In this document: positions 546 through 60,643 of the stretch, piece after piece | How the letters are laid out: each line of letters begins with the position of its first letter | Numbering within the stretch: position 1 is the stretch's first letter | NCBI GenBank assembly: GCA_918797485.1 | Contig: CAKKNE010000003.1 | Span: 3,162,001 to 3,226,000, forward strand | Length of the DNA stretch: 64,000 nucleotides | From: Pelagomonas calceolata | Lineage: Eukaryota > Sar > Pelagophyceae > Pelagomonadales > Pelagomonadaceae | Direction: 5' to 3' | Made by a program: the position numbers and the translations under genes | Notes under the pieces: model-generated | What the model was told of the DNA's origin: nothing | Database searches by the model: none | The model's input: only the letters and a program-made list of their open reading frames with translations

Positions 546-1778
546 TCAAGACTGAGCGCAGCCGAGGCAGCCGCCGGCGCAGGGCCGATGATGGGCCCGG
601 TCCGCGGAGCCGGCGGGCGGCGGCGGCGGCGGGGCGGCGGCGTCGATCGGCGGGCGCCGGACGGCCGGCGCGGCCTCGACGACGTTCGCGCGCCCCCCGA
701 CCGAAAACAGGGGCGGCGCGCCGCGTCTGACGTACTTGCCCTGGATCCAGCGCCGTTCCATCGTGACCTTTTGCTTGCGGTTCGTGATGTCGCGCTCGAC
801 GAAGCCGACGGCGAGCGCCTCGAAGTCCGCGTCGAACAGCGCGTCGAAGTCCGCCCGCGAGAAGTAGCGCGCGAGCGTGCCCTCGCCCCTCACGAAGCCG
901 TCCTCCTCCGCCGTCCTCCGGTTCGGCTTCGCCTCCAGGCGCTTCTGCGCGAGGTCGCCCGCCGCGTAGTCGCGCACGAAGAGCAGGCCGCCGGGCCGCA
1001 GCAGCCGCGCGCACCGCGCGACGCACCGCGCCGCCGGCGCCCTCTCGAGCGCCGACAGCGCGAAGATGAGCGTGATCGCGTGGAGCCCGCCGATGCCTGC
1101 GTGGAAATCATGGACCTTCGCGGACCTCCACGCCATTGAGCCGACGCAGTCACGGCGACGACGTCGCGTCCATGGTCTGAAAACTCACGCCATCGAGCGT
1201 GGGGCGCCCGAAATTAGATTTCCTCACAGGCCGAGACCGGACGCGAGCGCCTCGCACGCCGCCCAGGCCGCGTCGCCCTCCGCGGCGCCGGCGTCCGCCA
1301 CCCAGGCGTGGCAGCGGCGCGCCCGCGACCGGAGCTGCGCCGCGTACTCGGGCCTCTCCCTCAGGATGCCGATCGCCTCCGCGCTGAAGTCCGCGCACAG
1401 CAGGAACAGGTCCGGGTTCGCCCGCAGCAGCGGGAAGGCCGCCGCGCCGCAGCCGCAGCCCGCCTCGAGGCCCACGACGCCGCAGCCCGCGAGCTCGCGC
1501 GCGGCCGGGAACGCGTCGCTCCGGTCGACCGCCTCGCCGTCGCTCTCGAGCGGCGCCTGGTGGCGGAGCGGGTCCGCCCGCACGGCGGCCGGCATCAGCT
1601 CGGGCAGCTCGCGCCGCAGCCAGTGCCGGTCCTTGTAGAAGCGGCCACCCCGCCGCGCGTAGAAGTCGTCCCAGTGCACGTCGAGGGGCGCGTCGCGCGG
1701 GACCTTGGGCCGCTTCGGCTTGCGCGGCTGGCGGCCCCGCGCGGGCGGGTCGCCCGGGCGGCGCGGCGTGCGAGGCAT
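546..1778 (-). CDS. tRNA N3-methylcytidine methyltransferase (METTL2/6/8, Trm140 family), two exons
   Basis: Model: complement(546..1096, 1238..1778), 363 aa. The family transfers a methyl group from SAM to cytidine-32 of certain tRNAs. Visible motifs: WDDFYARR and FYKDRHWLRRELPEL (the family's N-terminal W-x2-FY ... [FY]KDRHWL..E[FL]PEL signature), then GLEAGCGCGAAAFPLL (SAM-binding motif I), LLCADFSAEAI, TLIFALSALE, LLRPGGLLFVRDYAAGDLAQ, FVRGEGTLARYFS, and the C-terminal ERRWIQGKY. All are collinear with METTL2/6/8. The start at 1778 is the ATG just before a basic, Pro-rich leader; the frame is open further upstream but nothing there resembles the family. Without splicing the protein stops just after SGLGL. 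Removing 1097-1237 (donor GTCTCGG, acceptor GCAG) joins ASG to IGGLHA and restores a continuous methyltransferase fold. The C-terminal tail is Pro/Ala-rich and unconserved. Confidence 0.9.
1097..1237 (-). mobile_element. Introner-like intron (141 bp) in the tRNA methyltransferase gene
   Basis: Read on the minus strand, the intron starts GTCTCGGC (first target copy), continues CTGTGAGGAAATC and ends GATTTCCACGCAG, followed by GCATCGGC (second target copy, 6 of 8 bases alike). The termini are inverted repeats: CTGTGAGGAAATC against CTGCGTGGAAATC, 11 of 13 alike. The GT donor lies in the target copy and the AG acceptor in the element. Interior text such as CTCGATGGCG and GACGCGACGTC recurs in the centrin and PP1 introns. 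Confidence 0.8.
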
Positions 1779-23564: not shown

Positions 23565-24190
<626 letters not shown>

Positions 24191-24289: not shown

Positions 24290-26886
<2,597 letters not shown>

Positions 26887-42626: not shown

Positions 42627-44057
42627 TCAGAGCGCGTCGAGCGCGATCTTGAGGGCGCGGACGAGGTCCCCGGCGTCCTCGACGCCGCACGACAGCCGGA
42701 TGAAGCCGTCGGTGATGCCGACCTTGAGCCTGTCTTCGGGGAGCATGTTCGCGTGCGTCATCACGGAGGGGCACGTGATGATCGACTCCACCGCGCCCAG
42801 GTTCTCGCAGAGCGACCAGGGCCGCTGGCAGGTGTCCATGAGCCGGCGGCCGGCGGCGCTGCCGCCCTTGACCTCGCACCAGAGCATGCCGCCGTGGAAG
42901 CCCCCGGCGTGCTGCCGCGCGGCCAGCTCGGCCTGCGGGAACGACGCGAGGCCCGGGTAGACGACGCGCGCGACCTTGGGGTGCGTCTCGAGGAAGGTCG
43001 CGACCTTGAGCGCGTTCGCGGCCTGCGCGCGGCAGCGGACGCCCATCGTCTTCGACGACTGGAGCGTGAGGAAGGCGGTGTGCGGCGCCATGATGTTGCC
43101 GTGCACGTTGCGCCAGAAGTGGAGCCGCTCGGCCAGCGCCGCGGTCTTCGCGGAGACGACGCCGCCGACCGTCATGTTGTGCCCGTCGAAGTACTTGGTC
43201 GTGGAGTGCAGGCTGAGGTCGCAGCCGAGCGCGAGCGGCCGGAGCATGAGCGGCGTCGCGAACGTCGCGTCGCAGCAGTGCAGCGCGCCGCGGGCCCTGG
43301 CGACCGCGGAGACCGCCGCCAGGTCGGTCAGCGTCAGCGTCGGGTTCGCCGGCGTCTCGCTGAAGACGAGCTTGGTGTTGGGGCGGCACGCCGCCGCCAC
43401 CGCGTCGGCGTCGCGGAAGTCGACGAAGCTGAACTCGACGCCGAACTTGCCGAAGAGCTCGCGCGCCGCGCGGTTCGTGCCGCCGTAGGAGCAGTCCGTG
43501 AGCACGCAGTGGTCGCCCTGCGAGAGGAACGCCGACATGACGGTCACCTGCGCGCACATCGACCGGCGGGTCGGGCGCGCCCGACGGCTCCCCGCGAACT
43601 CGTTGCTCCGCGGCGGCGCGGCCCCGCGGGCCGGGCCGGGCGGCGCGGGCGCCGCCACGCCGTCGAGCGGACGACGGCGCCGCGGCCCTTGGTTCGCGCG
43701 CGCCGGCGGTCGCGGTGGCCGCCATGCCCGTCGCGAAGCAGCAGCTGCCGGCGGCGCCCTCGAGCTCGGCGACCTTGGCCTCGAGCACGGCGACGGTCGG
43801 GTTCGTCGTGCGGCTGTAGCTGTAGCCCTTGGCCATGTACGCGTCGATCGACTCCTGCACGAAGGTCGTCGACTGGTGGATCGGCGTCAGGATGCCGCCC
43901 GTCGCGGCGTCTGGAGCCACTCCCGCATGCACGAGAGCCGTGTCCTGCGTAAATCGACCGGGCGTCAGGCTACCCTGATGGTGGTGCCAGGGACAACTTG
44001 ATTTCCCGCACGGCGTGTCGCCTGCGCCCTCTCGCCTTCAATCCACGTGCCACTCAT
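42627..44057 (-). CDS. Cystathionine gamma-synthase/lyase family PLP enzyme, three exons
   Basis: Model: complement(42627..43547, 43714..43944, 44022..44057), 395 aa. The family joins O-acyl-homoserine and cysteine (synthase) or cleaves cystathionine; which one is not certain. Exon 1 is short: MSGTWIEGERAQ. Exon 2 gives DTALVHAGVAPDAATGGILT, PIHQSTTFVQE, YSYSRTTNPTVAVLEAKVAE and GSCCFATGMAAT. Exon 3 begins VTVMSAFLSQGDHCVLTDCS and has YGGTNRAARELF, VFSETPANPTLTLTDL, CDLSLHSTTKYFDGHN (the PLP Lys is in STTK) and FIRLSCGVEDAGDLV. Both introns have GC donors; the protein is unbroken only if they are removed. The total length is typical of the family. No leader for plastids is seen, although exon 1 could be preceded by an unseen one. 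Confidence 0.85.
43548..43713 (-). mobile_element. Introner-like GC-AG intron (166 bp), second intron of the PLP enzyme gene
   Basis: The 5' target copy GCGACCGC carries a GC donor; the second copy after GCGCAG is GTGACCGT, 6 of 8 alike. The ends CGGCGCGCGCGAACC and GTCGATGTGCGCGCAG are loosely inverted. Splicing gives MAAT-VTVMSAFL, as in the family. Confidence 0.75.
43945..44021 (-). mobile_element. Introner-like GC-AG intron (77 bp), first intron of the PLP enzyme gene
   Basis: Donor GCGACACG, then CCGTGCGGGAAATCAAG; the end is CGGTCGATTTACGCAG followed by GACACGGC. GACACG is repeated at both ends. The GGAAATCAA/GATTT termini are those of the family. Confidence 0.75.
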
Positions 44058-45006
44058 CGTTGTTGGATGCCTTTGAAAGCCTGCACCTCTCCGTGGCACT
44101 GCAAGCGTATTGCTTTGGCACGGCTTCGCAGCGCTTGTGGATTTGCTACAGCGTGAGCGCTGAGCGAGATTGCCGTAGCTAAGAGAGACGCACCTCGCAC
44201 CTAGCGACAGAGACGGCCGGGCCGCGCGCGCGCGGGGGGGTACGCGCGGCGCAAACTCCTGAAGGGATCGGGGTACCCATCATGATGTTAGTAGTACCAG
44301 TAGTTTCAGCATCGAGTAAAACTTATTGCCTAAAGGCTCGGTGTTCGTTCGTCCTTTTTTTTATTATGGATTGGGAAGGTATCAAATTGTGTTAGGTCTG
44401 TTCCCAGAGGTATATACTGCAGTGGATAGACAAGCATCTGAGACAGCTTACCAAATTGTGCGAAAAGAATGAACATTTTCTCCACAGTGGGTGTAAAATC
44501 TGTCCACAGTGGGTGTAAAATCTGAATCTTGCTCGCTTTGTGAGATAATCTCCATGATTTCCGAGCTTTTGTCTCTAATTTCAGGTACAAGAGGTTGGTT
44601 GTCCCAGGCATGTACCAGTTTGAGGAGTCTGCATTGCAAGGGGCCACAGGAATTGACCAGTGATTTGCTTGTGCGGGAGACACCACATAGTAAGCTTGAT
44701 AAATACAGTGTGACACAAATCATAGCTGATACAAAATCTTCAGAGTTGAGCAAAACTTGTGATTGTGTTAAGACTTGTATATCATCGGAGCCAAAATTCG
44801 GTTGAAGAGTGACATGGTGTGCCGGAAAACAGGCACACCGTTATTATAACGTGGCCAAGTGACGATGCGAAGCCTCATGATGCAACTGGACGGCTGAAAC
44901 AATTCCTCATAAACGGGAAGATAAAGAGAGATTTTGATCACAATCATACAGAGAAGCTGAAGCGGAGACCTTTCCTTCAGCAATTACACGTGGTTCTACC
45001 GAGGTA
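44058..45006. other. AT-richer stretch without a recognised gene
   Basis: Contains a 22-bp tandem duplication (44481-44502 and 44503-44524, TCCACAGTGGGTGTAAAATC plus TG). Part of it may be 5' exons or leader of the AP2-domain gene, since its frame is open upstream of 45007. Confidence 0.4.
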
Positions 45007-45992
45007 TTGACAGGGCTGGCACATGATCCCGATCCTGGGATAGCTAATGCGGCGAAGCGAGCACTCGTTAAGAAAAGGTTTGGCTACAATGGTATGCGCC
45101 TCAAGGGCGCATTGGTAGGTGATTCCGAGGATGACAACGTCAAGGCCAAGGTGAAGGTTGCAGTCGACGAGTTTCTGTTAGGCTATGACTACGAACTGAA
45201 ACGCGGCTTGGGCTTGATAAGGGCACTCAAACAGTTTGCTACGGGCGAAGACGAGGAACTGGCCCGGATGGCGAACAAGGCGCTGCATGGCGACGAAACG
45301 GTGGCCGCCGCCTCGAAGAAGGCCGCCGCCGCCGAGAAGAAGAAGGCCGCCGTCGTCGCGCCGGACCCGGCGCGCGCGCCGACGGAGACGACCTCCAAGT
45401 TCTGGGGCGTGAATTGGGATCGGAGAGACAAGAAGTGGCGGGCGCAGTATCAAGACGCGGACGGCAAGCGGCACACGATCGGCTACTTCGACGACGAGGA
45501 GGAGGCAGCGCGCGCGTACAATAAAGCGATCAACGAAGCGGGCCTCGAAGGGCGACGCAAGACGAACGCGGTCGATGCGACGGGAGCGCTGGTGCCCCGC
45601 GAGCACACGATAAGGCGCGACCGCGCCTCCCGCCGTCGGCGACGACGTCCAAGTTCTGGGGCGTGAGTTGGCACAAGCAGAACCGACGGTGGCTTGCGCA
45701 ATACACCGACGCGAACGGCAAGCGGCGCTGCATCGGCTACTTCGACACCCAGGAGGCAGCCGCGCACGCCGTCAACGCGGCGATCCGCCGCTCGGGCCTC
45801 GAAGGCCGCCGCCACACGAACCCGGTCGTCGACGGGCAGCTGGTGCCGCCCGAGAAGTACAATGCACCCGGCCAAGGGCGCAAGAAGCACCGCCGCGACG
45901 AGCCCTCCGCCGCCGCGCCGTCGCCGCGCGCCCGCCGCGCGCGCCGCGCCATCGACTACGCTGCCATGGAGGACCCGGACTTCGAGGCCTGA
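45007..45992 (+). CDS. AP2/ERF-type double-domain DNA-binding protein, with a one-base frameshift
   Basis: Two AP2 domains are visible. The first is SKFWGVNWDRRDKKWRAQYQ, ADGKRHTIGYFDDEEEAARA, YNKAINEAGLEGRRKTNAV. The second is SKFWGVSWHKQNRRWLAQYT, ANGKRRCIGYFDTQEAAAHA, VNAAIRRSGLEGRRHTNPV. AP2 domains bind DNA in plant factors and in many protist regulators and mobile endonucleases. The frame changes between them: the first ends LVPREHTIRR... and the second is read from about 45615 one base out of phase; a single missing base after LVPREH would join them. It may be an error or true damage. No ATG starts the frame at 45007; the first in-frame ATG is at 45094, and upstream exons are possible. 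The N-terminal part is low in GC, the domains high. Confidence 0.7.
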
Positions 45993-46127
45993 CTCCGACT
46001 CGCGCGGCTAGGCACTTGCTAAGACTGTACATTACACCACACGACCTCTACACACGACCCCAAAATAGATAGAACTCAGACGTACTTCTTCGCCTCGTCG
46101 TACAACACGAGCACGAGCGCCGACGCA

Positions 46128-46856
46128 CTAGGAATCGGAACAACAACGAACGAACCCACCGGGACATCTGCACAGGCCTGCCCAAGAGCGCAAGACGTGG
46201 AGCGCGAGGTTCCGACAGGCCCGACGCCGGGCGACCACCATCATCTCGCGTCTCGCCCACCGTGCGCGCGCGTCAGTCTCCCAAGCGCGGAGTGCGACGG
46301 GGACGAGTTTCCAGGAACGCGTCGCGCATTGGTGCCGCGCAAAGGCGTCCGCTCGCGCGGTTTTGCATCGCGCCGCGCGCCGGCAGCGCGCGGCGCCGGC
46401 CCAGCGCTCTAGGTGCCGCGTGTGCGCCAGGAACGCAGCCGCCGCCGCCGCCATCGCCATCGCTTCGCCTACCCCGGAGCGCGCGACGGCCCGGGCGCGC
46501 CACGCCCCGATCGCGCGCGCGCTCAGGCGGCGGGCGCGGGCGGCGTCCGCGCGCGACGCCGCCCCCGCGCTTGCGCGGCGCGCGACGGCCCGGGCGCGCC
46601 ACGCCCCGATCGCGCGCGCGCTCAGGCGGCGGGCGCGGGCGGCGTCCGCGCGCGACGCCGCCCCCGCGCTTGCGCGGCGCGCGAGTCCGGGCAGGAGTCG
46701 GCTCCGCGCGCCCCAGACGACCAGCGCCTGTCGCGCGCCCTGGGCCGCCGCGTGAGCCGCCGCCCGCGCAACCGTGGCCGTTTCGTGCCGGCGGGCTGCC
46801 CGCTTGTAGCACGCGAACGCCGCCCAGGCGTGAAGGTGGCGACGACAAAAAGACAT
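46128..46856 (-). CDS. Sfi1-like centrin-binding repeat protein
   Basis: 242 aa. Seven Trp-centred helical repeats are seen: LHAWAAFACYKRAARR, LVVWGARSRL, IGAWRARAVARR (twice), LERWAGAARCRRAAR, LRAWETDARARWARR and LRSWAGLCR, spaced about 33-37 residues. This is the Sfi1 pattern, in which each W-containing helix binds one centrin in spindle-pole or basal-body filaments. Two centrin genes lie 21 kb away and a kinesin-9 gene is the next gene on this strand. Two repeats are exact at DNA level (99-bp unit). The start ATG is the first in frame; whether it is complete is uncertain because Sfi1 proteins are usually longer. Confidence 0.55.
   Translation of the reverse strand: MSFCRRHLHAWAAFACYKRAARRHETATVARAAAHAAAQGARQALVVWGARSRLLPGLARRASAGAASRADAARARRLSARAIGAWRARAVARRASAGAASRADAARARRLSARAIGAWRARAVARSGVGEAMAMAAAAAAFLAHTRHLERWAGAARCRRAARCKTARADAFARHQCATRSWKLVPVALRAWETDARARWARREMMVVARRRACRNLALHVLRSWAGLCRCPGGFVRCCSDS
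46481..46678 (+). repeat. Two exact 99-bp tandem units inside the Sfi1-like gene
   Basis: Copies at 46481-46579 and 46580-46678 look identical. Each encodes 33 residues, one centrin-binding repeat, on the minus strand. Confidence 0.9.
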
Positions 46857-47033
46857 TGCGTAGGGAGGTGGCTGCTACTGTCCGAGTTTTTCTCTCTTCA
46901 ATCACCACCTCTCGTGCTGATAGGTTGTTGGGAAGCAACCTCCTTCACGACAGCCGCTCAATGTGCAACGCCTTCAACGGGGATAGCTATAGCACACGTT
47001 TTTATATAATGGCGGCGGTGTATTTTTTGCGCG

Positions 47034-47061
47034 GCTAGCGGCGTAAGACACTAGCAAGCAT
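47034..47061 (+). promoter_or_regulatory. Recurrent GCTAGCGGCGTAAGACACTAG motif
   Basis: About 180 bp upstream of the Sfi1-like ATG (minus strand gene), preceded by TATATAAT at about 47004. The rest of 46857-47370 has a G-rich run at 47217-47230 and no gene. Confidence 0.45.
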
Positions 47062-47370
47062 ACCATAATAACCATACAAAGCCGCACTTTATTAAGCGGT
47101 ACAACAAGCTGGGGTACCAAAGTTTATTAGTAGCGCGTTGCAAGACCAATGTACAGATCATAGCTACCTGGGTTTTGAAGGGGGGCTACCGCAGTAGAGG
47201 TAGGGTAAGAGCTTGGAGGGGGGGGGGTGGGGGATGCGCCTTTGCCAGTTAAATATTATAGATCAACTAAAATAAAATTGAATCTAAATTGCATTGTTGA
47301 AAAATAGGCACAATGCGCCTAGGGAGGGGTGTAAGGGACTCGGAACTGCGAGACTCGGAGCTGCGCCGAC

Positions 47371-47842
47371 GTGAACGAGTTCGTCGCCACGGTCATCGGC
47401 GAAGTGAACGCGGCGCTGAAGAAGAAGGGATGGAAGAAGCGCGGCCGCGCCCCCTCGATTGAAGCAATCGTCGAGAAGACGACGGAACTGCTGCGCGTGG
47501 CGACCGACAAGGAGCTCGCGGCGGCCTACGGCGACGACGGCAAAAAGTACAAGAGGGGGGAGGGGGCTGGACCACACTGGCGATTTTTCGCGTACTGACC
47601 GGCGTTCAAGAGCATTGTGTCTTGATCGCGCATTTCCAAGATCCATGACGCGTCAACCACCATCTTACGTGGATCTGGGACACCTTCCCAGACGCGCGGG
47701 AGGTCCTGAAGGACGCCGTCCTGACCAGTGTGGAAATCAACCATTGAGGGAACCTCGCGGTCACGGCTTGATTTCACACAGGTCAAGCGGGCCTACATCT
47801 CTCTGGCGGAGATGAACTCGGTGGCGGCGGTGGCGGCGTGCT
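47371..47842 (+). CDS. Unresolved small multi-exon gene
   Basis: I do not recognise this protein and the model is incomplete. An open segment from 47371 reads NEFVATVIGEVNAALKKKGW, KKRGRAPSIEAIVEKTTELL and ATDKELAAAYGDDGKKYK, clearly protein-like but without an ATG, so an upstream exon is likely. A second segment reads WIWDTFPDAREVLKDA and, after removal of 47718-47781, VKRAYISLAEMNSVAAVAAC then stop at 47842. How the two segments join (somewhere between about 47560 and 47695) was not resolved. Confidence 0.4.
47718..47781 (+). mobile_element. Minimal introner (64 bp) with near-perfect inverted ends
   Basis: After the donor/target copy GTCCTGAC the element is CAGTGTGGAAATCAA, about 26 bases, then TTGATTTCACACAG, followed by GTCAAGCG. 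The two ends are inverted copies apart from one missing base and one terminal mismatch. The shortest member seen and the clearest view of the ends. Confidence 0.8.
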
Positions 47843-48198
47843 GATTGCTCGGCCGTCGTCGGGGCAGATGGGATTGATAAAACAGTAGACTTATCTTCTC
47901 ACACTGCGCGGTGCTCGGACCATACTGTAAACTTGCTTGTTAACATAAAACACATAGCACCACTGGGCGAGCGTCCCTTTCGGCGCATCTCGTCCAGCAG
48001 GCGAAGATGCTTTTCGGCGGACGCGATCGCGCGACGGCCATCCCAGACCCGCACACAGCCGGGATACCTATGCCATGCTGCCGATCGTGCACTGGGGCGC
48101 GGACCAGGGGCGGCGTATTCGAATTTAAAGACGAGCTCTTCGCCGACCCACGACTGCGTCGGTTGGTCGCGCAACCTGGTGGTCTTCTGTTTACCGGC

Positions 48199-50214
48199 TC
48201 AGAAGGATCGGATGTCCGTTGTCTCCGTTGCTCTGGTCGATTTCAAAACGTAGTACTCCTCGCTCATTTTTCGTTTTTGCGCCGCCCGCCGGCGGCGATC
48301 CCGCGCATCGCGCTCCTCCTCACGCATACGGGCTCTGCGTGCCGCCTCTTCTTCGGCCAAAGCCGCCGCCTCTTCTTCGCGCCGTCTGCGGAGGAGCCAG
48401 TCCCGCATCTGCTCGTGCTTTCGCATCCGCGACCGCGCGGCCTCGAGCTGACGCCGGAGGCGGTTCTCGCGCGTGCCCGTTGAGTCCGGTGAGACCGCCG
48501 GTGGTTCGCAGACGCGCTCACTGCTGCGGTCACTGACCAGCCGGGCCTCGACCTCCCGTCCGTCGCCGCGCGCGGCGCCACGCTCGCCGCCATTGACGCC
48601 GCCGCCGCCGCGCGGCTCCCGTCCGGGGCGCCCGCCGTCGCGGCGCGTGGCGCCGCGCTCGCCGGCGCCGACGCCGACACCGCCGCCGCCGACGACGTTG
48701 TATTGTCGCTGCGCTGGATCCTCGTCAAGTCCTGTCATAGCGAGCGGCTCCGCACGGATTATGGGCTCCAGCGCGGCCGCCATGCGCGCGCGCATTTCCT
48801 CCTCCTCGATTTCAAACCCAAAGAATCGCGACGTCGTTGCGCGGACGTCCGCGAGAGCCGCCTCCTGTAATCGAATCCGACCTAGCGCCGCCGCGAGGCG
48901 GTGGTCCGGGTCCCGGCCATCGGCCAGCTCGTCGCCCCTGCCCTGCCCCTCGAGTCGCGCTCTCAGAGAAGCGACTTCAGCCTTGAGTCGGGCAATCGTG
49001 ACAGACGGATCTGTTTCTTCATTAAGAACAGCATCGTTCTTGACCAGCGCGACGCGCTGCGCGAAGCGACATGTGCTGATCGATTCTTCCGTTTGGGCCT
49101 TCTCGGCGGAGCAGGTCGCGACCATGACGGTGCGGCAATTACCTCCCAGAGAGTCGCGGAGCACGGATGTCATCATCGAGTTTCTATAAGGAATGTGGTC
49201 CCGCGCATTCTCATTTCTTTCGTTCAAGGCAACAATCACCATCTCCAAATAAAACAATGAGGTGTTTATATATTTTGCTTCGTTTAGGGTGATCCCATCG
49301 CTTTTAGTTTTATGTACTCGCTCGGATCCCGCTAGGTCCACCAAGTGCAATTTTGATCTACGGACTTTGTCGGAACCGCCGGCCCCTCTGCATTCCAGGA
49401 AGACCGTGAATAAACAATGGGAGCGAGAAGACGCTTGGTTCATCGCCGTTTCGCTGATGGCCCGGTTCGTGTCTCCTAGAAACAGCAAGTTGAGGGCCTC
49501 CTCCTCGGAGGTGGCGCGGTGCATGGACAGGTTCCTCAAATGAAAATTGCCGTGCCTGCGCGCATCACGCGGTCGCGTCTCGCTGTCACAACGACGAAAT
49601 CACTCTCTCGCTGTCGTGTCGACGGCGTCACGGTGGCCTCGTCGTCCCGTCGACGCCCTCGACGCGTCTTAGAGTTCGGAAACGGAAAGAAACCGCGCCG
49701 CATCGCGCTCGTCCTCCATCATGCGAACTCGAGGGAGGTCCTGGAGCGCCTTCACTCCTGAAGATTCGTTCAATAAGTCAAAACCCTGCTCGTTGTAGAT
49801 CTCCATGTAGCTGATGTGCGCGGACCAGGAGCAGTCCGACCTTGATCGGAACTCCTGGAAGATCATACTGAGAGCTCGGGGAATGATCCCGCGATCTTCA
49901 TACCTCTCCGAACCACCAGTAATCGTGAATGTTTTTCCACTTCCAGTTTGGCCGTAGGCAAAGACGGTGCTATTATAGCCGTCTAAAGCATTTTGTACCA
50001 CGCGCTTGCCCACGCGCTCGAACACTTGGGCTTGCGTGATGTCCATCGGTAATACTTGATCGAACTTGAAAGCCCGCTGGGAGTCCCTACCGGCAGCCTT
50101 GGCTGCGACGTCCCGAATCATCAACGACCGGCCGTCCGCGCCGACGTCATAGTCTTCACTAGGTTGTGTTGTGGGGCGCATGCGCAGGTAGACCGTGATC
50201 CCTTCGGTCATCAT
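48199..50214 (-). CDS. Kinesin-9 (KIF6-type) motor protein, two exons
   Basis: Model: complement(48199..49555, 49709..50214), 620 aa from the ATG of MMTEGITVYLRMRP. Motor motifs: VFAYGQTGSGKTFTITGGSE (P-loop), YEDRGIIPRALSMIF, NQASSRSHCLFTVF (switch I), LHLVDLAGSERV (switch II), HIPYRNSMMTSVLRDSLGGN and STCRFAQRVALVKNDAVLNE. The GGSERYEDRG, EEEALNLLFLGDTNR and neck sequence are those of KIF6/KIF9, motors of cilia and flagella. Removing 49556-49708 gives MMEDEHGNFHLRNLSMH, which lines up with KIF6 residue for residue; its donor is GC. The tail is an Arg/Glu-rich coiled coil with a Gly-rich spacer. A short open frame further downstream on the same strand (47899-48174) may be unrelated. Confidence 0.9.
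49556..49708 (-). mobile_element. Introner-like GC-AG intron (153 bp) in the kinesin gene
   Basis: Donor GCGCGATG, end GATGCGCGCAG, then GCACGGCA (4 of 8 alike to the donor side). Loose inverted ends CGGCGCGG and CTGCGCGC. Placed by the exact fit of the joined protein to KIF6. Confidence 0.6.
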
Positions 50215-50295
50215 CTTCTTTGCGGGGGGTGCTGCAGGCGCGTGCTTTTGTTTTTGCGCTCCCGTGCGGTTCCTTCGGTTCCGTTGGTTCAAGCT

Positions 50296-50660
50296 GGTAC
50301 TGGTACCATGGTACCTACTGCGGTACCTACGGTACCGTAGGTACCGTAGGTACTTAAGTACCTACGTACCGTAGCAGAGAGAGAGAAACCTACTAGCCCA
50401 TCCTACCCTAGATATGTATCTCCCACTCTCTAAATTTGAGTCTATCATATGATGATACATCGAGTGTCTATTGCACTACGGTGTAACAACAATTTGCTAT
50501 AAAACACTCAGGCTCTCGCCGAGTCGTAGTTAGGTTGGCCCAGCCTTGGCTGGTGAGCTAGGACCCTGCTACCTTACATAACGCTGCGACATACTCTTGC
50601 TACGTAGGTACCGTAGGTACGGTACCGTAGGTACCTGGCGGTACCGGCGTACCTACGGTA
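50296..50660. repeat. GGTACC/CGTAGGTAC palindromic low-complexity repeats
   Basis: Dense runs of GGTACCGTAGGTAC-type palindromes at 50296-50372 and 50603-50660, with smaller ones at 52708-52740 and 14960-14990. They sit in the 838-bp gap upstream of the kinesin gene and downstream of PP1, which holds no recognised gene. Confidence 0.7.
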
Positions 50661-51052
50661 TTCACTAAACCTACTTTATCCGGGTATTCAAGATATAGTT
50701 CCGGGGATAACCCCACACCTTCAGGGGAATTACCAAACGCCCCTTTGGCAGTGCCTGAACAAACTCAGGAACAATTTATCCCGACCGACCGCGGGTTCAA
50801 GTTGACATGTGGCGATGGACAACTGGTGGACTTCTGGGGGTGCGTCGCGGTGCGCGTGGGTCAGGCGCTTCTCTACCGGCGATTTGGAGATCTATTCGCG
50901 GTCGCGCGCCGATTTAGAGCCTCGCGCAGAGCAGCAGCTTGTGGGCGCTTGCAGACCGCCGAGACGGGTGCTATTTACAAGTTCACGAAAGGAATACAAG
51001 TTCATGGGGCTATTTACCTCAGTGTTTATTTGTCCTAGGTCTTGTCAACTTC

Positions 51053-52590
51053 TCAGCCGGGCCGCACGAGTGTTTGCGTGCGATCGGCCTCGACCGCTTC
51101 CTCGTGAGTCTTTTTGGTGTTCATGGGGCGCAGGACTTTGAAGGAGCAGCACAGACCTGTGTCGACGCACATCATCCCACCGGCATTGTCGAACTCGCCG
51201 CAGTAGTTCGGCGCCGAGAATATGGTTACAAGTCCACGGGCTGCCTGGAACTCGTACCCGTCCTCGACCACCTGATGCGCTCGGCAGACGATGTCCAGGT
51301 CATGCTGTTTCAGGAAGTCACGGATGACCTCGTGCCCGAACGTATAACTAACTCCCCGCGTGTTGTAGCCTGTAAGGAAATCAAAGTTCAGGTGGCTTCG
51401 AATCAGATGAACACCCACCCCATCAACCCGACGCCTTATCTGAGAACTCCACTACCCTCCCGGTCGCCGGCAAGGTTACCTCAGTCGCGCTACGACACAA
51501 TTCTCGGGACCTAGTTTACTGGTTGATTTCCCACACAGGTTGTAGCCCCATCCCATGATCGCGGGGTCCGGATCCGACCAGAGGAGGTCGCAGAGCAGCC
51601 CGTCCTCAGGGACCTCGGTCGGCCGCTCTATTTTGGCGATCTGGTCGAGCGACGCGAGTTCGGGGCTGAGGCCACCGTGCATGGCCAGGATCTTGTCGGC
51701 GACTATGGCTGCCACCTGCGTAAACGAAGCTGTCGCGGCGCTCTCCCCACCGTGAATCTCCGACGAACACGCCGCGTCGACGGCGGAGGTTGACGCCCTC
51801 GGTGCGACGCACGGCCCCAAGGTGAAGACACACGAACTTCAGGTGCTCAGAGTCACCGACCGGCATGCAATTAAAACAGTCACCAAAGACGCGCCAGAGT
51901 TTGATCGAGTAGCGGCGCTTGCACTCATCGTAGAACCCGTAGATCCTGTTCAGGGCCGAGCACTCGTGGTTGCCGCGCAGAAGGAAAAAGGTTTCCGGGT
52001 ACTTGATCTTGTAGCACAGCAGAAGCGCAATTGTTTCGATCGACTGTTTTGCCCGGTCCACGTAGTCACCCAGAAAAACGTAGTTCGCCGCTGGGGGGAA
52101 GCCACCAACCTGTGTGCAAATTAACCAGTGAGCCGTGTGCTCGGCGACGATCGTACTGGCTTAGTCGAGCGGTGGGGGGGCCTGGCGTTGACCGCCGCGC
52201 CATCGAGCAGACTCGCGTTTGCGTGGAGATCGACGCGATGAGTGAGCACGCCGTGGACCGATGTACGGCAGTAGAGACACTCTCGACAAGCGCATATACC
52301 GTCGACGAAGGCACCGTTTCAATTCGCGCACCGTTCCCAACCTCGAAGAGCCGCAGCAGGTCGTGGTACTGGCCGTGGGTATCGCCGCATATGTTCAGCG
52401 GCGCATGTAGCTCGAGCAGCATCGGTTGCTCGAGGAAAACTCCACGGCTCGTTCGTGCAAGCCATAGGACGTCCTCCTCTGCGAGGTGCACCTCGGTCCC
52501 CGGACGGTCATCTTTGACGGCCACGAGCTGCCGAATGCATGCGTCGAGCCGCTTTAGAGTATTATCGTCTCGTAGGCCAGGTGTGCACAT
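51053..52590 (-). CDS. PP1-type Ser/Thr protein phosphatase catalytic subunit, four exons
   Basis: Model: complement(51053..51369, 51547..51715, 51861..52109, 52342..52590), 327 aa, the normal PP1 length, from the ATG of [15 protein letters not shown]. Metallophosphatase motifs: [20 protein letters not shown] (PP1 has GDIHGQ), [20 protein letters not shown] (usually GDYVDRGKQ), [80 protein letters not shown] and [20 protein letters not shown]. Metal ligands are all present; Thr for Ile and Ala for Gly are unusual changes beside them. All three introns are of the introner type, and each splice restores the PP1 sequence with no extra or missing residue. The C-terminus is short and charged. Confidence 0.9.
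51370..51546 (-). mobile_element. Introner (177 bp, GC-AG), third intron of the PP1 gene; best-preserved member
   Basis: Perfect 8-bp duplication GCTACAAC on both sides. The first copy supplies a GC donor. Ends CTGTGTGGGAAATCAA and TTTGATTTCCTTACAG are inverted repeats. Splicing gives [14 protein letters not shown], the same length as PP1. Confidence 0.85.
51716..51860 (-). mobile_element. Introner-like intron (145 bp), second intron of the PP1 gene
   Basis: Donor GTCGGTGA, end TTCGTTTACGCAG, then GTGGCAGC. Target copies and inverted ends are only weakly alike, so this is likely an older member. The joined protein is [16 protein letters not shown]. Confidence 0.55.
52110..52341 (-). mobile_element. 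Introner-like intron (232 bp), first intron of the PP1 gene
   Basis: Donor/target GTTGGGAA, then CGGTGCGCGAATTGAA; the end is GGTTAATTTGCACACAG, followed by GTTGGTGG (first five bases alike). The interior shares CCACGGCG and CTCGATGGCGCGGC with the centrin intron. Other in-frame donors exist further in, but only this one gives [12 protein letters not shown]. Confidence 0.75.
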
Positions 52591-53562
52591 TAGGCGCGAA
52601 ATCGTCTCCGCTTGTTCGCCCCCCTCAGGGTCTTGCCTTGCCACAGCGTGCGGCAGCGCAGTGTCTGTACCACCCGGATCTGCGATGCAGCCCTTAGGCC
52701 GTGCCTATACGTACCAGGCCGTAGGTACCGTAGGTATCCTGAGATACATGTTATCGTCTCTCCGTTTACAGCGATTGTGTTATGATCCTGTAGTTACCTT
52801 TATCTAGAGCGAGCTCCTCTCGGGTTCTAGTAGGTATCAAAGGCTAGTGGCCTGTATCCTAGGATACTTCCTTCTCCCTCAGGCTCAGGCTCTTCAAGTT
52901 ACTAATCTCCCGGGCCTTTATTCCAACTCTGCCACAGTGTCTTATCCGAGTCCGACTCGGAGTCGGGGTTGAGGGGGTTCCCACACTCTCACGTTTCAGT
53001 GAGAGTCCTTCCTGTTGGTATCTCCGTGTCCGAGTCACATTGACACCCGAGAGACCTAGCTACAACAGCTGCATTGTGCACTTGCTGCCAGTGCACCCAG
53101 CTCATCAGTGAATTTCGCCCGGGCCGGGCGCAAAGTGACTCCCCGTGTAATACTAGCACTATGAGTGAATGGGGTGTAAACCTTCATCATCATGATTACG
53201 TCAAGGTGGGACTATGTAGGAGAGTAAGAGGGGCCTAGTGTAGCACCAGGGGGTATATTCTTCGCAGTCCATGTTGATGGTCACGGTCGATTAGTAGTAA
53301 TATTTCGAGATCCACTTCAAGTTTTGGGACTCGGATAGGTCACTGGCTCATGAAGCTTATCATATGTCATTTGAAGCTTCACAATTTTGAGCTGCGGTGC
53401 AGGCCCTGTCTCTGACTGGAGAGCTAGGACCCTGCTACTTTACATACAAGCTCGTAACGCTGCGACATACCAGTACTCTTGCTATATACACGGTATCATA
53501 TGTCAATAGCCAGCGAGCGGAGCAGCTGTGCCTTGTAACAGAGTCGAATTACACACCTAAAT
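52591..53562. other. Compositional boundary, no recognised gene
   Basis: GC falls clearly across this stretch. It contains GGTACC-type repeats (52708-52740), a hairpin CTCTCAC...GTGAGAG near 52987-53006, and text resembling 50520-50590 (GAGCTAGGACCCTGCTAC at about 53420), another small repeat. Confidence 0.45.
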
Positions 53563-55694
53563 ATGTATGGCGATGCATCGCGATTAGCGCGCGCGCAGCA
53601 GAGGCGAAAGGCGGGGGTCAAGCATGTGCCTGCTGAGGTCAAGTGGGAACGTGTACCACGCCGTAGCTTCTCTGGCACATTTGATAACTTAATGTTGACT
53701 TTGAAAGTAGTACCTGGAGCTGATGGCCTCAATGCTGTCGTTGTGGGCTGGAAAACACCAATAGATGACCATGACGCGGCCGCTGGATCTTGTGAGAAGC
53801 AGATGCTCGAAGTTGATTGCCTTAGAAAGGAATTTGTTGCAAAGAATCGGACATTCAAGAACTGGGAGACTGCGTGGCTACTGATGAATGACAGACCAGA
53901 AGAGTTGGAAGAATATCTAGAGCTGCGACCCAAAATTGCAAACTTTCGGGAACGCGTCGCATTGATGAAAAAAACCGAAGAGAAAGTTGAAGCAGAGCAG
54001 CAGTGGCGAAGATATCATGAGCTCAAGCTGCGCTGCGAGCGTCTTCTCGAGGCCCGCGAAGTGCTGAGAGATGTAAAAAGAATCAAAGATTGTTCATTTC
54101 AAGACATGAAGCAAGCTGATCAGCACTTAGAAAAGTTGTTCGAGCTAGAACGTGAAACAGCAGAAAGAATCAGTGAGGACCACGTCCTTGCAGATCAGCA
54201 AGGCTGTAGCATATCAGAATTGTTTCCTGCTGTGCAAGCCGGTATGATTATTACAGAAGTTAATGGTATCATGACTGAGAATCTACCATGGGTTGAGGTT
54301 CATCAGCTTATCCAAGATGCTCACCATCCACATATGCTTCAATTTCGACGTTATGACTTCAGACTTAACTCGGTCTCCAGTAAATGGGAAACGCTCCAGG
54401 CAGTCAGAGAACGTGCGCAGTACATCGGAGATCCAAGGGTTGGTCGTGAACTGTTCTTACAAGCCTGCCGTGCAGGGACAGAGGATGTAGTTGCCCAATA
54501 CCTCAGAGAAGGTCAGGAAGTAGATGCCCGGGACACAACACAGTGTACTGGATTACATTACTCTGCTTCAAATAGTCATCTTGGTGTTATCAAGATCCTC
54601 ATTGAAGCCAAAGCCACACTCGAAGTGCGTGATGCCAACTGGGAAACACCCCTAGTCACTACTTGTCGTCGTGGGGAATGTGAGGGTGCAACCATGCTTA
54701 TTGCGAATGGTGCTAGGTGTGATGTTCGAGATAGAGCTGGTCGTTCAGCTTTTATCCATGGCATCCTTAGTGGGTCAGTTGCTATGGTCGTTCTACTGTT
54801 ACAATTAATTGATGAAGACACCATGCGATGGCAGCCGGATAAAATCTGGAAGTGGACGCCATTGCACTATGCTGTCTCAGCTAAACTTCCGTCTATTGTT
54901 GATGTTCTTCTCAAACATCATGCATCACCCTATGCCCTGAGCGCCGACGGGAAGACTCCTATTGTTCTTGCACAGGGCGAGCTGCACGAGGTACAGACTT
55001 TGATTCAACAATTCATTTCAAACGAACCAGCACAGTGTGTTTTACCCGGTGGGCTTGATCGCGGTGCGTTGTGGCTTGGCTCAAGAGAAGCCGCATATCC
55101 GCAATTTGCAACAGACCGAGGCTTTACATCTGTTCTATCTATTTTTGATCGAGGTTTGGTTCTCCGTCTGTTGGAACAAAATCATCCTTTAAACTACAGG
55201 TCAAAAGGACCCAAAGATTCGCTGGCTATCGGACCCTGGGGAGAACAAAGCCATTGTACAATGTGAGATCATGATAAACATGCCAGAGACTACGGAGGAT
55301 GCAGCAGCATGGTACACTCTTACTGGATTACTAAAAACGTGTACAGAATTTATTCACAAAGCTATCGAGTCAAGTCCCATCATTATCTCATCCCCAGCCT
55401 CAATACAGTCCACCTTAACATCACCTCACTCGTAGGCGCAAGGAGACTTTATTAGTGCACTGTGACCTTGGAATTCACACATCGTTCTGCATTGTCCTTG
55501 CTTATATGATGACCAAGCGACGACTGAGACTACGAGAATCAGTTCTGCATCTACAAAAAATCAGACGACAGCTTAAGCTAGGCCGACACACAAGACTTGG
55601 CCTGGAAGCCATGGAACGCTCCTTGGATTCGCGCAAGCTTCGTCGCCTTGACGGTCGGCTGCGAAAAGCTCCCATCTTGGCCATAAAAATTTGA
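53563..55694 (+). CDS. PDZ-ankyrin protein ending in an inactive dual-specificity phosphatase domain
   Basis: Suggested model: join(53563..55153, 55200..55407, 55436..55694), 685 aa. Coiled-coil text near 110-210 is followed by a PDZ-like segment (SISELFPAVQAGMIITEVNG), ankyrin repeats (TGLHYSASNSHLGVIKILIE, WTPLHYAVSAKLPSIVDVLL) and GALWLGSREAAYPQFATDRG, the start of a DSP fold. The 46-bp intron at 55154 is well supported: it leads to RWLSDPGENKAIVQCEIMIN, TLTGLLKTCTEFIHKAIES. The second join uses only 28 bp and is doubtful, but the following ETLLVHCDLGIHTSFCIVLA is plainly the phosphatase loop. There the catalytic Arg of HC-x2-G-x2-R is replaced by Thr, so the domain should not hydrolyse phosphate. 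Codon use is far less GC-biased than in 0-50 kb. Confidence 0.7.
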
Positions 55695-56103
55695 TATGAC
55701 GAGAATCATTCACCAGCTCGTCACTACAGCGCCAGCACGGCATAATACCAGGGACAACAGAGGGTGACGACCCAGGATCGATGCTTTGCGGGCTGTGTAG
55801 CTCTAGTACTCTGCTCACCACGAATATGATGTTTTGTCGTGTGGCCCACGCCGGGCCTACTTTAGTTGTACTAGTTCCCCCTAGGCCTCCTTGGCCGCTA
55901 AGTTCGGGCGAACTCTCTGCGCGTGGGGCAGCCGCGCAGCGATCGCCATAATTGCAATGGAAATACACGTCTAGTAGGATCCCAAGGTTCAACTGAGACG
56001 TATCCAAGCACAACCCGTACTTGTATTACCCGTCTAGGCTACTTCCCATCCTAGGGTGCTCCGATATCCCCTTAGTAGGGGGAAGTCGCCTCTCACTCCT
56101 AAC

Positions 56104-56250
56104 TATTATCATCCTGAGTCACTTTTATTGACGGACGCAATTCCCCGTCACAAACCCCATCAAACATGGGAGAAACTATTTCGTTAGACGACTACACTAC
56201 GCTGCCGGGGAAGTCCGGAGCTACACACTCTATTTCCCTATGCATCGCAG
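56104..56250 (+). repeat. Dispersed repeat present three times
   Basis: CCCCATCAAACATGGGAGAA through GCATCGCA recurs at 61105-61202 and, with short insertions, at 61635-61782; the upstream AACTATTATCATCCT part recurs at 61591. Contains the small palindrome CCATCAAACATGG. Confidence 0.85.
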
Positions 56251-56467
56251 GTTATGGGCCCACGCTCTGCGTGGTGTCTAACGGAACTGTCCAGAGGCAT
56301 TGAACAACCCTCCGGACGTTTTAAAACCTAACCTAAATCATTATAAAACATCACTAAACGTTATTCAATTAACAAACTCCACAAATTAATATATTAAACA
56401 CGAAACTCAGAAGGCTCGCAATCTCGAAACTAACATAAGATGGCGGACCCTCCCGGGCGGCCTTAGT

Positions 56468-56574
56468 CTACTCTGCAGCCAAATGTGCTCGTCAGGTAAG
56501 CCCAAACAGCGTCTCCTCGTCGCGTGTTTCGCGCACTAAGCTCACGACACGCGACACGCAGAAGCTTGGCGGGG
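56468..56574 (+). repeat. Dispersed repeat, inverted copy of 14733-14845
   Basis: Anchors: CAAATGTGCTCGTCAGGTAA, GCCCAAACAGCGTCTCCTCG. It ties this AT-richer region to the GC-rich one. Confidence 0.85.
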
Positions 56575-57127
56575 TAAATAATTCAAGTTTAGCAAAACCC
56601 GTCACTTGGTGGTCCAAAAACCGGGCCGAAACAGGCAAATCTTGGTAGAATATGGTCCCGCGAGACCCCAAACTGTGTCCTTGGTGGCCTGGGGGGTTCA
56701 AGTTCATGAGGCGAATGTTCCCTCCGCACGGTTACCACTGGCAGTACTAATTCCCGGCCTCAGCCTTGACCCAAAACCAAAGGTAGTCTGACCCAAAACC
56801 AAAACTTACTTTTTGGACACTTGAATATTCAAATAAGTAAGATGCTACTCAACTCCCACCCCAAGTATCGGTCTGCCAAAACGTCAAATCCCGACGGCCC
56901 CACCCCCACTTTTGTTGGGGGGCGGGAATCGACTTGTTTAACCTTCGTTTGTAAGGACCTTTTGGCTGCATTTATATTTGCTGTGGGCGGCAATCCGGGT
57001 CTTTCCGAGTCCTCGAAATCTGGCTTCCTCGCCCCTTCATTGGGGTGGTCTTTATTAGCCAATGACGACCGAATATCGTGAGCGACAGATAATTGCGAGT
57101 GCTTAAATCTTGTCAAAACGATCAAAA

Positions 57128-60100
57128 TCACGATGCTTTGGCTGGCAAGCGATGCGCGATTAATGATTTTGATGTTTCGAAGTGTTCAAGAGCAGCATCT
57201 AGCTCTGGTGTTCGCAAATATTTTTTGTTACTATGCGCAGTGTCCGGGGTAACTTGCTTGTGGCCCGCTAGCTTCTGCGCTGACCTATCCCTCTCTTCCG
57301 TCAGCGATTCCAGGACACTTTCAACTTGGTGTATAATCTCGTTTATGGGCGTATCTTTATCGGGAGGGGGGATGCCAAGCATAATGCACACATGCTTGAT
57401 ACCCCCAAAAGCTGCTCGATGCAGACTCTCCGCCATTCGGGCTGTCTCCTGGGCATGCTTGTGACGCATTAATTGATTGGCAAGGCGGAGCTGCATATCA
57501 CGAGCCTCGCGGGAACTCGAACCAACAATTGATTGTGAATCATAACGTACTTGCTCCAGCTCCAATTCAGATTGGCTCAGCATATATTTTACTTTTCGTT
57601 GTCGAAGTTCAGCAGCATCATGCAATGCGCACATTTGTGTCTGGAGCGACTGGGCCAGATAAAATTTGCAGAAGAACTCTCTCAGGTTGGGCAACAATGT
57701 TCGCTTCTGAATAAGCTTTAAACGGGCCTCCCATTCAAGCTCCAGGTATGATGCCAGCTCTTGGGGTCGGCTGCCAACAAGGGCAGTATCTTTGGCTAGA
57801 ACTCCTTGGGTGTGGTTGTGACGCTCTTTTGTACTGTCTCGCCTAGACTTGACACCGGAATTTGAATCATCTGAGCTTAGCAAGCCGTCAGTGGGACGAT
57901 TGAGATGTTTTCGTCGTGCTGTGCGTTGGAGATGCTCGCGCTGACGTATCCGTTGAATTAGCATGTCATTCTGCAATCCAGTCAAATCCTGGGCTGCACG
58001 ATGTAGAATTTTATTGTTCGCAGCAAAGTCATGTGAGTCAAATATATTGCTTCTCAACTGCTGTTGGACTTCTTTTATGAATAGGTCATCTTGAGTCAGC
58101 TTTGCCTCGAGCTCGTCTATCAGTGCTTGGCTATGAGCTGGATGGCGTTCGCACATAAGCTTGACACACTCATAGTTCCTATACAGAAGCTTTGCCATTC
58201 TATGACCACGTTCGGTCCTTTCTAGTCGTTCCACTAATCTAGTGAGCTCAGTCTCCAAGCCGCTTGTCGACAAGTGCATTTTGCTTAGCTCATTTGCTTC
58301 ATCACGAATGCCATCATATCTCCGATTAACAGCAATTCGCTCTTGCCTTAATTGATCTAACTCATTGCGGTATGAACTAATGATTTCGCGAAGTTGGTTC
58401 AATTTGTTAGCAAAATGATCCACAAAACCACGCTGTTGATTTTGTGGTGACATTTTTTTTCGCGCAAATTTATGTCGTGATTTACTGGTGGGCTTCTTAG
58501 TTTCGGCAGTTGGCTTTGCTAATGCATCTGCCATATTGTCAATTTTGACAGAGGATATTTGAGGTAACTTGCGATCTACAACAGCTGCCTTCATTGTACT
58601 TGCCAGAGCAGTCGAATCGTTGCTTATCTTCGGTGCCGCATTTGCGGGAGTCATACAAAGAAATTGATTTAGCTTGAGTAGTTTGGTTGAGGGTGTGGTA
58701 GCAGTTTTGTCCTGATGATTGGATCGTTGTGCGACTCCCTTCAAAAATCGCTCCCCACAGTTTGCCAGAGACACCCATGGAAATTGAATCCACACCCACC
58801 TGTGATAAAAGTAGGTGGAACACAGGGGGACTTTTTCATTCACTTTCATTGGCACGTCCACGACACCCAGTTTGCCGCTGATGTTACCCTTTTCACTGAT
58901 TAACTCAACAACTGGGGTGTTCAGAATGGAGTTACCATCCTTGTCTATTGAAAGAAATGGTACACCAAGACTTGCCAAGTCGTCGTTCGGAATTGGTGGA
59001 TGAATGAATTTGGGCACATCTGCCGCTTCTTCCAACGACAGCGTGGCAAATTCAAGCATGAAATCACCAATTTGCAGGATCACGGCAGCAAGTTCATCAT
59101 CAGATGGTGTGTGTGCAAGTTTAAACTCGTCAACTGATCGCACATACTCTTCTACAAGGTCAAGACATGGACGAGATGGTTGTGCGCATCGCATGGTGTC
59201 ATCAAACTCTCCTGTAACCAGTTTGCGTATGGGTGTGTGTGAATTGGAGGAAGCAGTCAAGCTTGCCCACAAATTTAAAAACTCCCGCTTGTGTGCATGT
59301 GTCCACCAAAGGCAGAACATTCTCACTTCAACGAGCACAGCGCGTAGCCTATGCCAATTCCCACTCACTTCCAAATGATAAGGAAGCGCATCGAGTTTGC
59401 GATCGCACGGTGAAAGCCTGCCAAAATAACGGGCCATCAAATGATGAGCACGAATATGCGCTTCTGGGCTACGGATATAGTCACTGTAAATCACTGCAGC
59501 ATATTCTACATGGGAGAGGCTTCGCAGTCCATTCACTGAAAATGTGAAATCACGCAGAATCCTGCGAATACACGCACACTGTTCACGTGGTAGAGGGTTG
59601 CCTGTAGCGAGTTGAGCAATCCCCCACATTTCTATCTCGGTCAATCCATGTCTGGACGAATAAAGTGCCGTAAGTACCCGCCTAAGATTATTTGCGGCTT
59701 CTGTGTATGTAGAATCTACGTAACCGCTACACATTTCAAGTACGCGAGCAATCAGCACTGGTGTTACCTCGGCTGCAAGGTAGACCTCAACCTGCTGATC
59801 AATAGTCGCATTCGACATTTCAGCGCCAAGGCGCAAGGCATAGAGAACGGTACGAAGGAAAAGCGGCTGCGAGGAAGCTTTGGCAGTTACTATTCTGAAT
59901 TGTTGAGCTTGCTTTAGCAATTGTAGAGACTGCTGGTTGGCTGCAAGAAAACTGTTTATGATAAGATGGCGAACCTCAACAGACAGTGGCTGCAAATGAA
60001 TCGTTGGACACTTTCTCCGACGGAGCTCTGTATATGTTCTGTGCATCCTAGACTCGTCAAATAGCCCGTCAGGGCTTGACCCGAATTGCTCTAGTTCAAC

Positions 60101-60643
60101 TGTGGACACGATTATTCTCACTCCCTGAGGTAGCTGAGACGGGAGCCAGTGCAATGTATTTGCTGTGCTAGATTCTCCAAGGAGACAATTGACAGCGTCA
60201 AGGACTATCACAATGCGAGCAGGGAATTGTTTTTTCCCCGCAGCTGCCAGGAATCGACTTAGCGACCACCTGAGACGTTCCTCGGACGTTGGAATTTCCA
60301 TTTCCCTTAGCTGAAAGTGCTCCTTTAAAGCGGACTCAAGTCGGTGAAGGAGATGAGCAAGCTGCTTTGACTGCGGCGAGCATCCAACAAAATGTTGAAA
60401 CAGAAATTCATCTCTGTGTTTTGTCTTTCTGCGTAGGCTCACCCAATTCGCTAACAAAGCGCTCTTGCCGCACCCGGCGGCACCGGTGATCACAAATGGT
60501 AGTTTGACATCTCCCTCAATAGTCTCCGCATGACTGTCAAGAGCATGGAATACAGCTCTGTTCCCCGTTTCGTAAACGTAATCCGTGCTACGGCTGGCGG
60601 CAAAGGCTTGATGCTCATCCGCGTAGTCATTTTCCATGTTCAT
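57128..60643 (-). CDS. NACHT-like P-loop NTPase with long C-terminal coiled coils
   Basis: 1171 aa, one exon, from the ATG of MNMENDYADEHQ. Residues about 45-210 form a NACHT/STAND-like NTPase: LPFVITGAAGCGKSALLANW (Walker A) and RIVIVLDAVNCLLGE (Walker B), then LPQGVRIIVSTVELEQFG. The ALLANW wording and the following helical region (HGLTEIEMWGIAQLATGN, HHLMARYFGRLSPCDRKLDA, LPYHLEVSGNWHRLRAVLVE) are like nephrocystin-3 and related NACHT-TPR proteins, which act at cilia; that link is by resemblance only. A middle part reads FYHRWVWIQFPWVSLANCGE. From about 720 on, several hundred residues are coiled coil (NQLREIISSYRNELDQLRQE, LETELTRLVERLERTERGHR). Codon use is AT-tolerant like its neighbours. 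Confidence 0.65.
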   Translation of the reverse strand: MNMENDYADEHQAFAASRSTDYVYETGNRAVFHALDSHAETIEGDVKLPFVITGAAGCGKSALLANWVSLRRKTKHRDEFLFQHFVGCSPQSKQLAHLLHRLESALKEHFQLREMEIPTSEERLRWSLSRFLAAAGKKQFPARIVIVLDAVNCLLGESSTANTLHWLPSQLPQGVRIIVSTVELEQFGSSPDGLFDESRMHRTYTELRRRKCPTIHLQPLSVEVRHLIINSFLAANQQSLQLLKQAQQFRIVTAKASSQPLFLRTVLYALRLGAEMSNATIDQQVEVYLAAEVTPVLIARVLEMCSGYVDSTYTEAANNLRRVLTALYSSRHGLTEIEMWGIAQLATGNPLPREQCACIRRILRDFTFSVNGLRSLSHVEYAAVIYSDYIRSPEAHIRAHHLMARYFGRLSPCDRKLDALPYHLEVSGNWHRLRAVLVEVRMFCLWWTHAHKREFLNLWASLTASSNSHTPIRKLVTGEFDDTMRCAQPSRPCLDLVEEYVRSVDEFKLAHTPSDDELAAVILQIGDFMLEFATLSLEEAADVPKFIHPPIPNDDLASLGVPFLSIDKDGNSILNTPVVELISEKGNISGKLGVVDVPMKVNEKVPLCSTYFYHRWVWIQFPWVSLANCGERFLKGVAQRSNHQDKTATTPSTKLLKLNQFLCMTPANAAPKISNDSTALASTMKAAVVDRKLPQISSVKIDNMADALAKPTAETKKPTSKSRHKFARKKMSPQNQQRGFVDHFANKLNQLREIISSYRNELDQLRQERIAVNRRYDGIRDEANELSKMHLSTSGLETELTRLVERLERTERGHRMAKLLYRNYECVKLMCERHPAHSQALIDELEAKLTQDDLFIKEVQQQLRSNIFDSHDFAANNKILHRAAQDLTGLQNDMLIQRIRQREHLQRTARRKHLNRPTDGLLSSDDSNSGVKSRRDSTKERHNHTQGVLAKDTALVGSRPQELASYLELEWEARLKLIQKRTLLPNLREFFCKFYLAQSLQTQMCALHDAAELRQRKVKYMLSQSELELEQVRYDSQSIVGSSSREARDMQLRLANQLMRHKHAQETARMAESLHRAAFGGIKHVCIMLGIPPPDKDTPINEIIHQVESVLESLTEERDRSAQKLAGHKQVTPDTAHSNKKYLRTPELDAALEHFETSKSLIAHRLPAKAS

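Follow-up and report, generated by a model that had tools for sequence, protein, structure and literature searches.

Genes and introns of the window

The window, by which the whole analysed stretch of 64,000 nucleotides is meant, has a GC content of 65.7% (without N) and carries eukaryotic genes, several of which are long single ORFs. Among the products identified are a protein of RSE1/DDB1/CPSF1 type, eIF2 gamma, imidazoleglycerol-phosphate dehydratase and a protein that combines a kinase and a PP2C domain. Furthermore, a CpeT/CpcT-like ORF at 28107-28835 matches Pfam PF06206, a bilin-lyase family, and may be of use in placing the host. Per 2-kb bin, the GC content ranges from 63 to 82% up to 44 kb and from 46 to 63% beyond. 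Within 44000-64000 it falls from about 70% to about 48%, and the ORFs of this low-GC part include ankyrin-repeat, NACHT/AAA-like and class I tRNA synthetase ORFs. A 106-base segment occurs at 56144-56249, 61096-61201 and 61628-61733, with repeats that are 96% and 68% identical and that possibly represent a shared gene start, read by eye as MGETISLDDY. Near-tandem units of about 214 bases occupy 20144-21048, and 211 bases are identical between two of the units.

The sequence-only reading had listed ten introns built to one plan. These ten are found at the positions given below, in genes that run on the minus strand in eight cases and on the plus strand in the two others (25909 and 47718), and each is named by its first position:

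1097..1237, minus: introner with a GT donor in a gene with a methyltransferase domain, duplication 6/8
24427..24575, minus: introner with a GC donor in centrin copy c2, missing from the tandem copy c1, duplication not detectable (2/8)
25909..26015, plus: introner with a GT donor in the gene of an SRPK-like kinase, duplication 7/8
43548..43713, minus: probable introner in the same cystathionine lyase-like gene as 43945, GC donor, 6/8 duplication
43945..44021, minus: introner with a GC donor in the cystathionine lyase-like gene, in-register duplication 3/8
47718..47781, plus: introner-like element of 64 bp, ends very well kept, 4/8 duplication, host protein unrecognised
49556..49708, minus: protein-supported intron in a KIF9-like kinesin gene, GC donor, family membership unsupported (p=0.115)
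51370..51546, minus: introner with a GC donor in the gene of a PP1-type phosphatase, element at 51370-51538, opposite orientation to most scored copies
51539-51546 and 51362-51369, minus: 8/8 duplication of the 51370 introner, GCTACAAC on the minus strand
51716..51860, minus: protein-supported intron in the PP1 gene, GT donor, doubtful family member (p=0.003), no profile match
52110..52341, minus: introner with a GT donor in the PP1 gene, duplication 5/8, at 224 bp the longest element
23586..24006, minus: 421-base block of centrin c1, identical to c2 24575-24995, ending at most 1 base from private introns
24006..24151, minus: 146-base intron near the 5' end of centrin c1, lacking in c2 and without introner ends (p=0.87)

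Ends and membership of the family

The ends of the family are described by a 15-base inverted consensus, CTGTGTGGAAATCAA / TTGATTTCCACACAG. End pairs with at most seven mismatches in total occur seven times in the window (several being pairings of three elements) against none in 60 simulated sequences, and with at most eight mismatches 13 times against 0.05 per simulated sequence. Solo ends with at most four mismatches number 15 against 4.8 expected, the five outside the listed introns being about the chance number. Each intron was also scored for its terminal inverted repeats (TIR) against a null of 20,000 random GY...CAG intervals drawn from the window. Seven of the ten reach p<=2.5e-4 (1097, 24427, 25909, 43945, 47718, 51370 and 52110), these p values leaning somewhat low because the consensus was derived from the members themselves. 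For 43548 the TIR p value is 0.015, or 0.0006 jointly with the duplication; for 51716 it is 0.003, or 0.006 jointly; and for 49556 it is 0.115. By these values, the single plan proposed for all ten stands for seven firm members and, probably, for 43548, whereas 51716 is doubtful and 49556, though an intron, is not supported as a member of the family.

Terminal inverted repeats, as well as similar sequence within introns of unrelated genes (firm for seven of the ten listed), are thus both found here, as expected of DNA-type introners. The elements range from 56 to 224 bp in length and their ends have decayed to differing degrees. The common interior noted earlier for 24427 and 52110 is borne out, with 15/15 and 31/37 bases alike. 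Over 13 elements, the better preservation of the acceptor end is without significance: the summed edit distance is 48 for the donor end against 37, and seven elements stand against two, with four ties (sign test p=0.18). A profile built on ten elements, which necessarily recovers its own members, found no convincing extra copy in the window (best new match 34641-34681, E=5) and no match in reversed sequence. No transposase is present among 23 window ORFs scanned with Pfam.

Related elements in a public metagenome-assembled genome

A scan of genome contigs for CTGTGTGSAAATCAACCA returned three matches, one of which lies in NZGT01000054.1, 'MAG: Spirochaeta sp. isolate MED672', a contig (in part L004) that contains one entire element as well as another right end; the partner ends of the other two matches are no better than 6 mismatches. 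Across the MED672 MAG, the end motif was located 15 times with at most two mismatches and the reversed pattern 0 times, and every place with 0 or 1 mismatch belongs to contig C146 or C182 (L020 and L021 in the element names). An interior motif, again with at most two mismatches, is found at 26 places against 0, across more contigs. End pairs with duplications were found in two of 23 MAG contig stretches, namely C146 and C182. Their elements measure 82, 57 and 108 bp, and every one of the three has an 8/8 duplication starting with GT. Profile matches outside the training set are present in L021 at 2331-2397 (E=4e-9) and 2203-2304 (E=7e-5). A weak match lies in another contig of the same MAG (L082 3259-3349, E=0.005).

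Removal of three introns from C146 yields a 557-residue ORF matching CNNM4. Junctions 1 and 2 of this CNNM protein are ungapped against CNNM4, while the third is located beyond the aligned part. Introns 1 and 3 have introner ends and intron 2 (L020:6834-6913) does not; two of the three 8/8 duplications thus belong to this CNNM gene. Interior sequence is also shared between the two assemblies: 1097 and L021:1432 are 88% identical over 33 bases in opposite orientation, and 24427 and the L020:6834 intron are 94% identical over 31 bases. An RNA hairpin was considered as the device for splicing: folding of nine introns, six of the window's ten and three of the MAG, gave z values from +0.5 to -4.1, two of them below -2. 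As a separate observation, a public MAG labelled Spirochaeta sp. MED672 holds eukaryotic contigs with introns; since C146 and C182 are eukaryotic, this MAG is mixed. When 26 window ORFs were compared with the 23 stretches of the MAG, no protein match was better than E=0.059. In L021, inverted stretches at about 2090-2250 and 2400-2550 encode, as read by eye, peptides that resemble each other (VIAVGYRLLTAPFCEGFAGIEAF / VIAVGWRLLTVPFCRGFAGIEAF), which may reflect an inverted duplication adjoining an introner.

Spread by viruses was considered and rejected. The partner ends of the single end-motif match in viral contigs (L001) all have 6 mismatches, with 0-3 of 8 bases duplicated, and none of the 29 interior-motif matches in viral contigs has a qualifying end pair. 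Paired-end patterns 20-112 bases apart gave 0 matches in viral contigs, these being exact patterns that would miss decayed copies.

Target duplications and orientation of insertion

In window order, the duplications match at 6, 2, 7, 6, 3, 4, 4, 8, 4 and 5 of 8 positions. The values claimed before for four introns (8/8 at 51370, 7/8 at 25909 and 6/8 at 1097 and 43548) are hereby confirmed in the same register, and the remaining six introns show 5, 4, 4, 4, 3 and 2 of 8. At duplication positions 3-8, 33 of 60 bases match within introns, compared to a mean of 18.2 with shuffled partners (permutation p=0.0006). A target site duplication, as expected of a DNA-type introner, is therefore present, perfect (8/8) at 51370 and in the three MAG elements and weak or absent at 24427 and 43945. 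The exon-side copies of these latter two (GAAGAAGA at 24427 and GACACGGC at 43945) start with GA; if insertion took place at these sequences, the duplicated copy would have been unable to act at once as a donor. At 43945, the six bases GACACG still match at an offset of two. The proposal that a target copy starting with G[TC] serves as the donor is thus supported in general, but the simple GY rule does not cover 24427 and 43945, for which either a later shift of the donor or a disturbance of the duplication is needed.

Orientation was called by leave-one-out scoring, in which each of ten elements was scored by a model built without it. Five elements are sense (1097, 24427, 52110, L020:6254 and L020:7303), three are antisense (51370, 47718 and L021:1432, the last by 25.7 vs 17.4 bits) and two gave no call (25909 and 43945); the scores of three elements are only 8-9 bits. 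This scoring of the sequences indicates that the introners inserted in both orientations. As 51370 is antisense and has a clean junction in PP1, the repeat apparently works as an acceptor either way.

Two alternatives bear on this evidence. Introns of the ordinary kind that have a strong acceptor consensus in common, with inverted ends and repeats that arose by chance, may account for 49556 and perhaps for 51716, but chance is already unlikely for seven members, and the paired ends, the common interiors, the presence of both orientations and the 8/8 duplications at independent loci render it very improbable for the family. Spread of copies via reverse splicing of RNA, proposed for fungal introner-like elements in excerpts of PMC9860276, would agree with the finding of related introns in unrelated genes. 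However, transposition of DNA is indicated by the inverted ends, the duplications of 8 bp and the insertions in antisense orientation, and reverse splicing is regarded as very improbable.

Splicing read from the host proteins

Splicing was read by cutting at the start of the duplication (G[TC]) and at the terminal CAG, followed by translation of the host frames. A continuous protein results for nine of the ten introns: PP1 (three introns), centrin, KIF9, the cystathionine lyase-like protein (two), SRPK and the methyltransferase. The earlier claim that splicing restores the protein in every case thus holds with the exception of 47718, for which the frames tried gave no recognisable host protein and whose neighbouring ORFs are without Pfam match. 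As far as can be read from the proteins, the edges of these nine introns would coincide with the duplication and the element end, as expected of DNA-type introners. Among the nine, the donor is GC in five (24427, 43548, 43945, 49556 and 51370) and GT in four (1097, 25909, 51716 and 52110).

The junctions were checked by alignment to solved structures. They are ungapped in PP1 (all three), centrin, SRPK and the lyase at 43548. The KIF9 junction is ungapped as well, with a two-residue gap about 10 residues before it and a one-residue gap about 5 residues after it, and so is the lyase junction at 43945, with a one-residue gap two residues before it. For the methyltransferase (1097), the support consists of an open frame and a domain match across the junction. 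With the donor in the duplication and the acceptor CAG at the far end of the element, removal would leave a single target copy and an unchanged protein, as these alignments suggest.

The donor could instead lie inside the element (CTGT^GTG), each insertion adding 12 nt (four residues), which is the arrangement described for a family of Aureococcus sp. in excerpts of PMC9860276 and, by translation, is also in frame at 51370. This is very unlikely for the family described here: no four-residue insertion is seen at the eight junctions tested (PP1, centrin, SRPK, KIF9 and lyase), and intron positions 13-14 are GA in 1097 and 51716.

The centrin pair

Two tandem centrin genes are located on the minus strand, c1 at about 23.55-24.2 kb and c2 at about 24.4-25.06 kb. 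The c1 gene reads through RIMKKTSLY without the 24427 intron, while c2 is without the 146-base c1 intron located after FELT. Presence and absence at homologous sites, a further expectation for DNA-type introners, is therefore found in one case, in which the duplication is invisible; the difference at 24427 may also be due to loss of the intron from c1.

The two copies are identical over 421 bases (23586-24006 = 24575-24995), a block with one edge within 1 base of the c1 intron and the other within 1 base of the c2 intron. Outside the block, the 3' side differs at synonymous sites and in the stop codon, and the 5' side differs in residues too. The simplest account of this single case is gene conversion that was halted at the unshared introns, although it is possible that the identical block is an assembly artefact.

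Proposed mechanism of intron formation

The introns of the family were very probably made by a short non-autonomous DNA transposon, an introner, with the ends CTGTGTGGAAATCAA / TTGATTTCCACACAG and an 8-bp target duplication, which derives the donor from the duplication and the CAG acceptor from the far end of the element. A transposase supplied in trans would insert the element, thereby duplicating 8 bp of the target; the duplicated copy starting with GT or GC would become the 5' splice site and the CAG at the far end of the element the 3' splice site. With the acceptor located within the inverted repeat, an intron could arise from both orientations of insertion. Branch points could be provided by the TTGAT motifs and by the CTCAC motifs present at one of the ends, and the intronic duplication and the interior would decay later.

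This interpretation, already put forward in the sequence-only reading, is supported by inverted ends, shared interiors, 8-bp duplications, a donor from the duplication, an acceptor in the repeat, protein-neutral splicing with ungapped junctions and the intron-free centrin copy, and is further backed by the copies with perfect duplications in the second assembly. The formation of introns by introners is already known as a process, and it is unusually traceable in this window, where intron birth by transposon is seen at the resolution of single genes, in copies whose duplications are perfect and in others that have decayed, in either orientation, and beside a paralogue that is free of the intron.

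More tentatively, and with doubt slightly outweighing confidence, the inverted end may be viewed as a two-way portable acceptor, the sole demand on the target being a duplication starting with GY, which would explain the abundance of GC-AG introns in such algae. Introners taking GY donors would offer a simple cause for the GC-AG excess that is termed an enigma in the excerpts of PMC3033335. As part of the same proposal, introns in place would bound gene conversion, so that tandem paralogues such as the centrin pair are homogenised only between introns. The end sequence allows the family to be traced across algal genomes and mis-binned MAG contigs.

Comparison with known introners

Huff et al. 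are said to have described in 2016 that the introners of Aureococcus anophagefferens carry one splice site and take the other from the duplication. As far as the excerpts of the cited papers show, the architecture of the window family, in which the acceptor is carried and the donor comes from the duplication, is that described for DNA-type introners (PMC9860276). The introners of A. anophagefferens are DNA-type elements with inverted ends and direct repeats, canonical splicing motifs and repeats of constant length (PMC7789003). The window family resembles them in its inverted ends and direct repeats, a likeness of description and not of sequence, but differs in that five of nine donors are GC, the ends are unevenly decayed and the elements vary from 56 to 224 bp. 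In addition, A. anophagefferens resembles the host described here in its high GC content and its many GC-AG introns, which make up 39.6% (PMC3033335). The host is probably a marine alga and, judging by its GC content, its GC donors and the type of introner, probably a pelagophyte.

Family 4 of Aureococcus sp. (TARA_AOS_82_MAG_00129) has an 8-bp duplication, as here, but its internal donor adds 12 nt (PMC9860276), whereas the eight junctions tested in this study are neutral. The introners of Symbiodinium microadriaticum are like the window family in carrying the 3' splice site, taking the 5' splice site from the duplication and having inverted ends; their duplication is 4 bp compared to 8 bp in the window (PMC9860276). 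In the passages of the literature that were covered, no printed end sequence for pelagophyte introners was found. Pelagomonas calceolata is a high-GC pelagophyte with a peak of intron length at about 210 bp that has been likened to introner elements, and its large low-GC regions may be compared, by description and not by intron sequence, with the right part of the window (PMC9481584). Taken together, the family is best read as introners that derive from a non-autonomous DNA transposon, a kind already known from pelagophytes.
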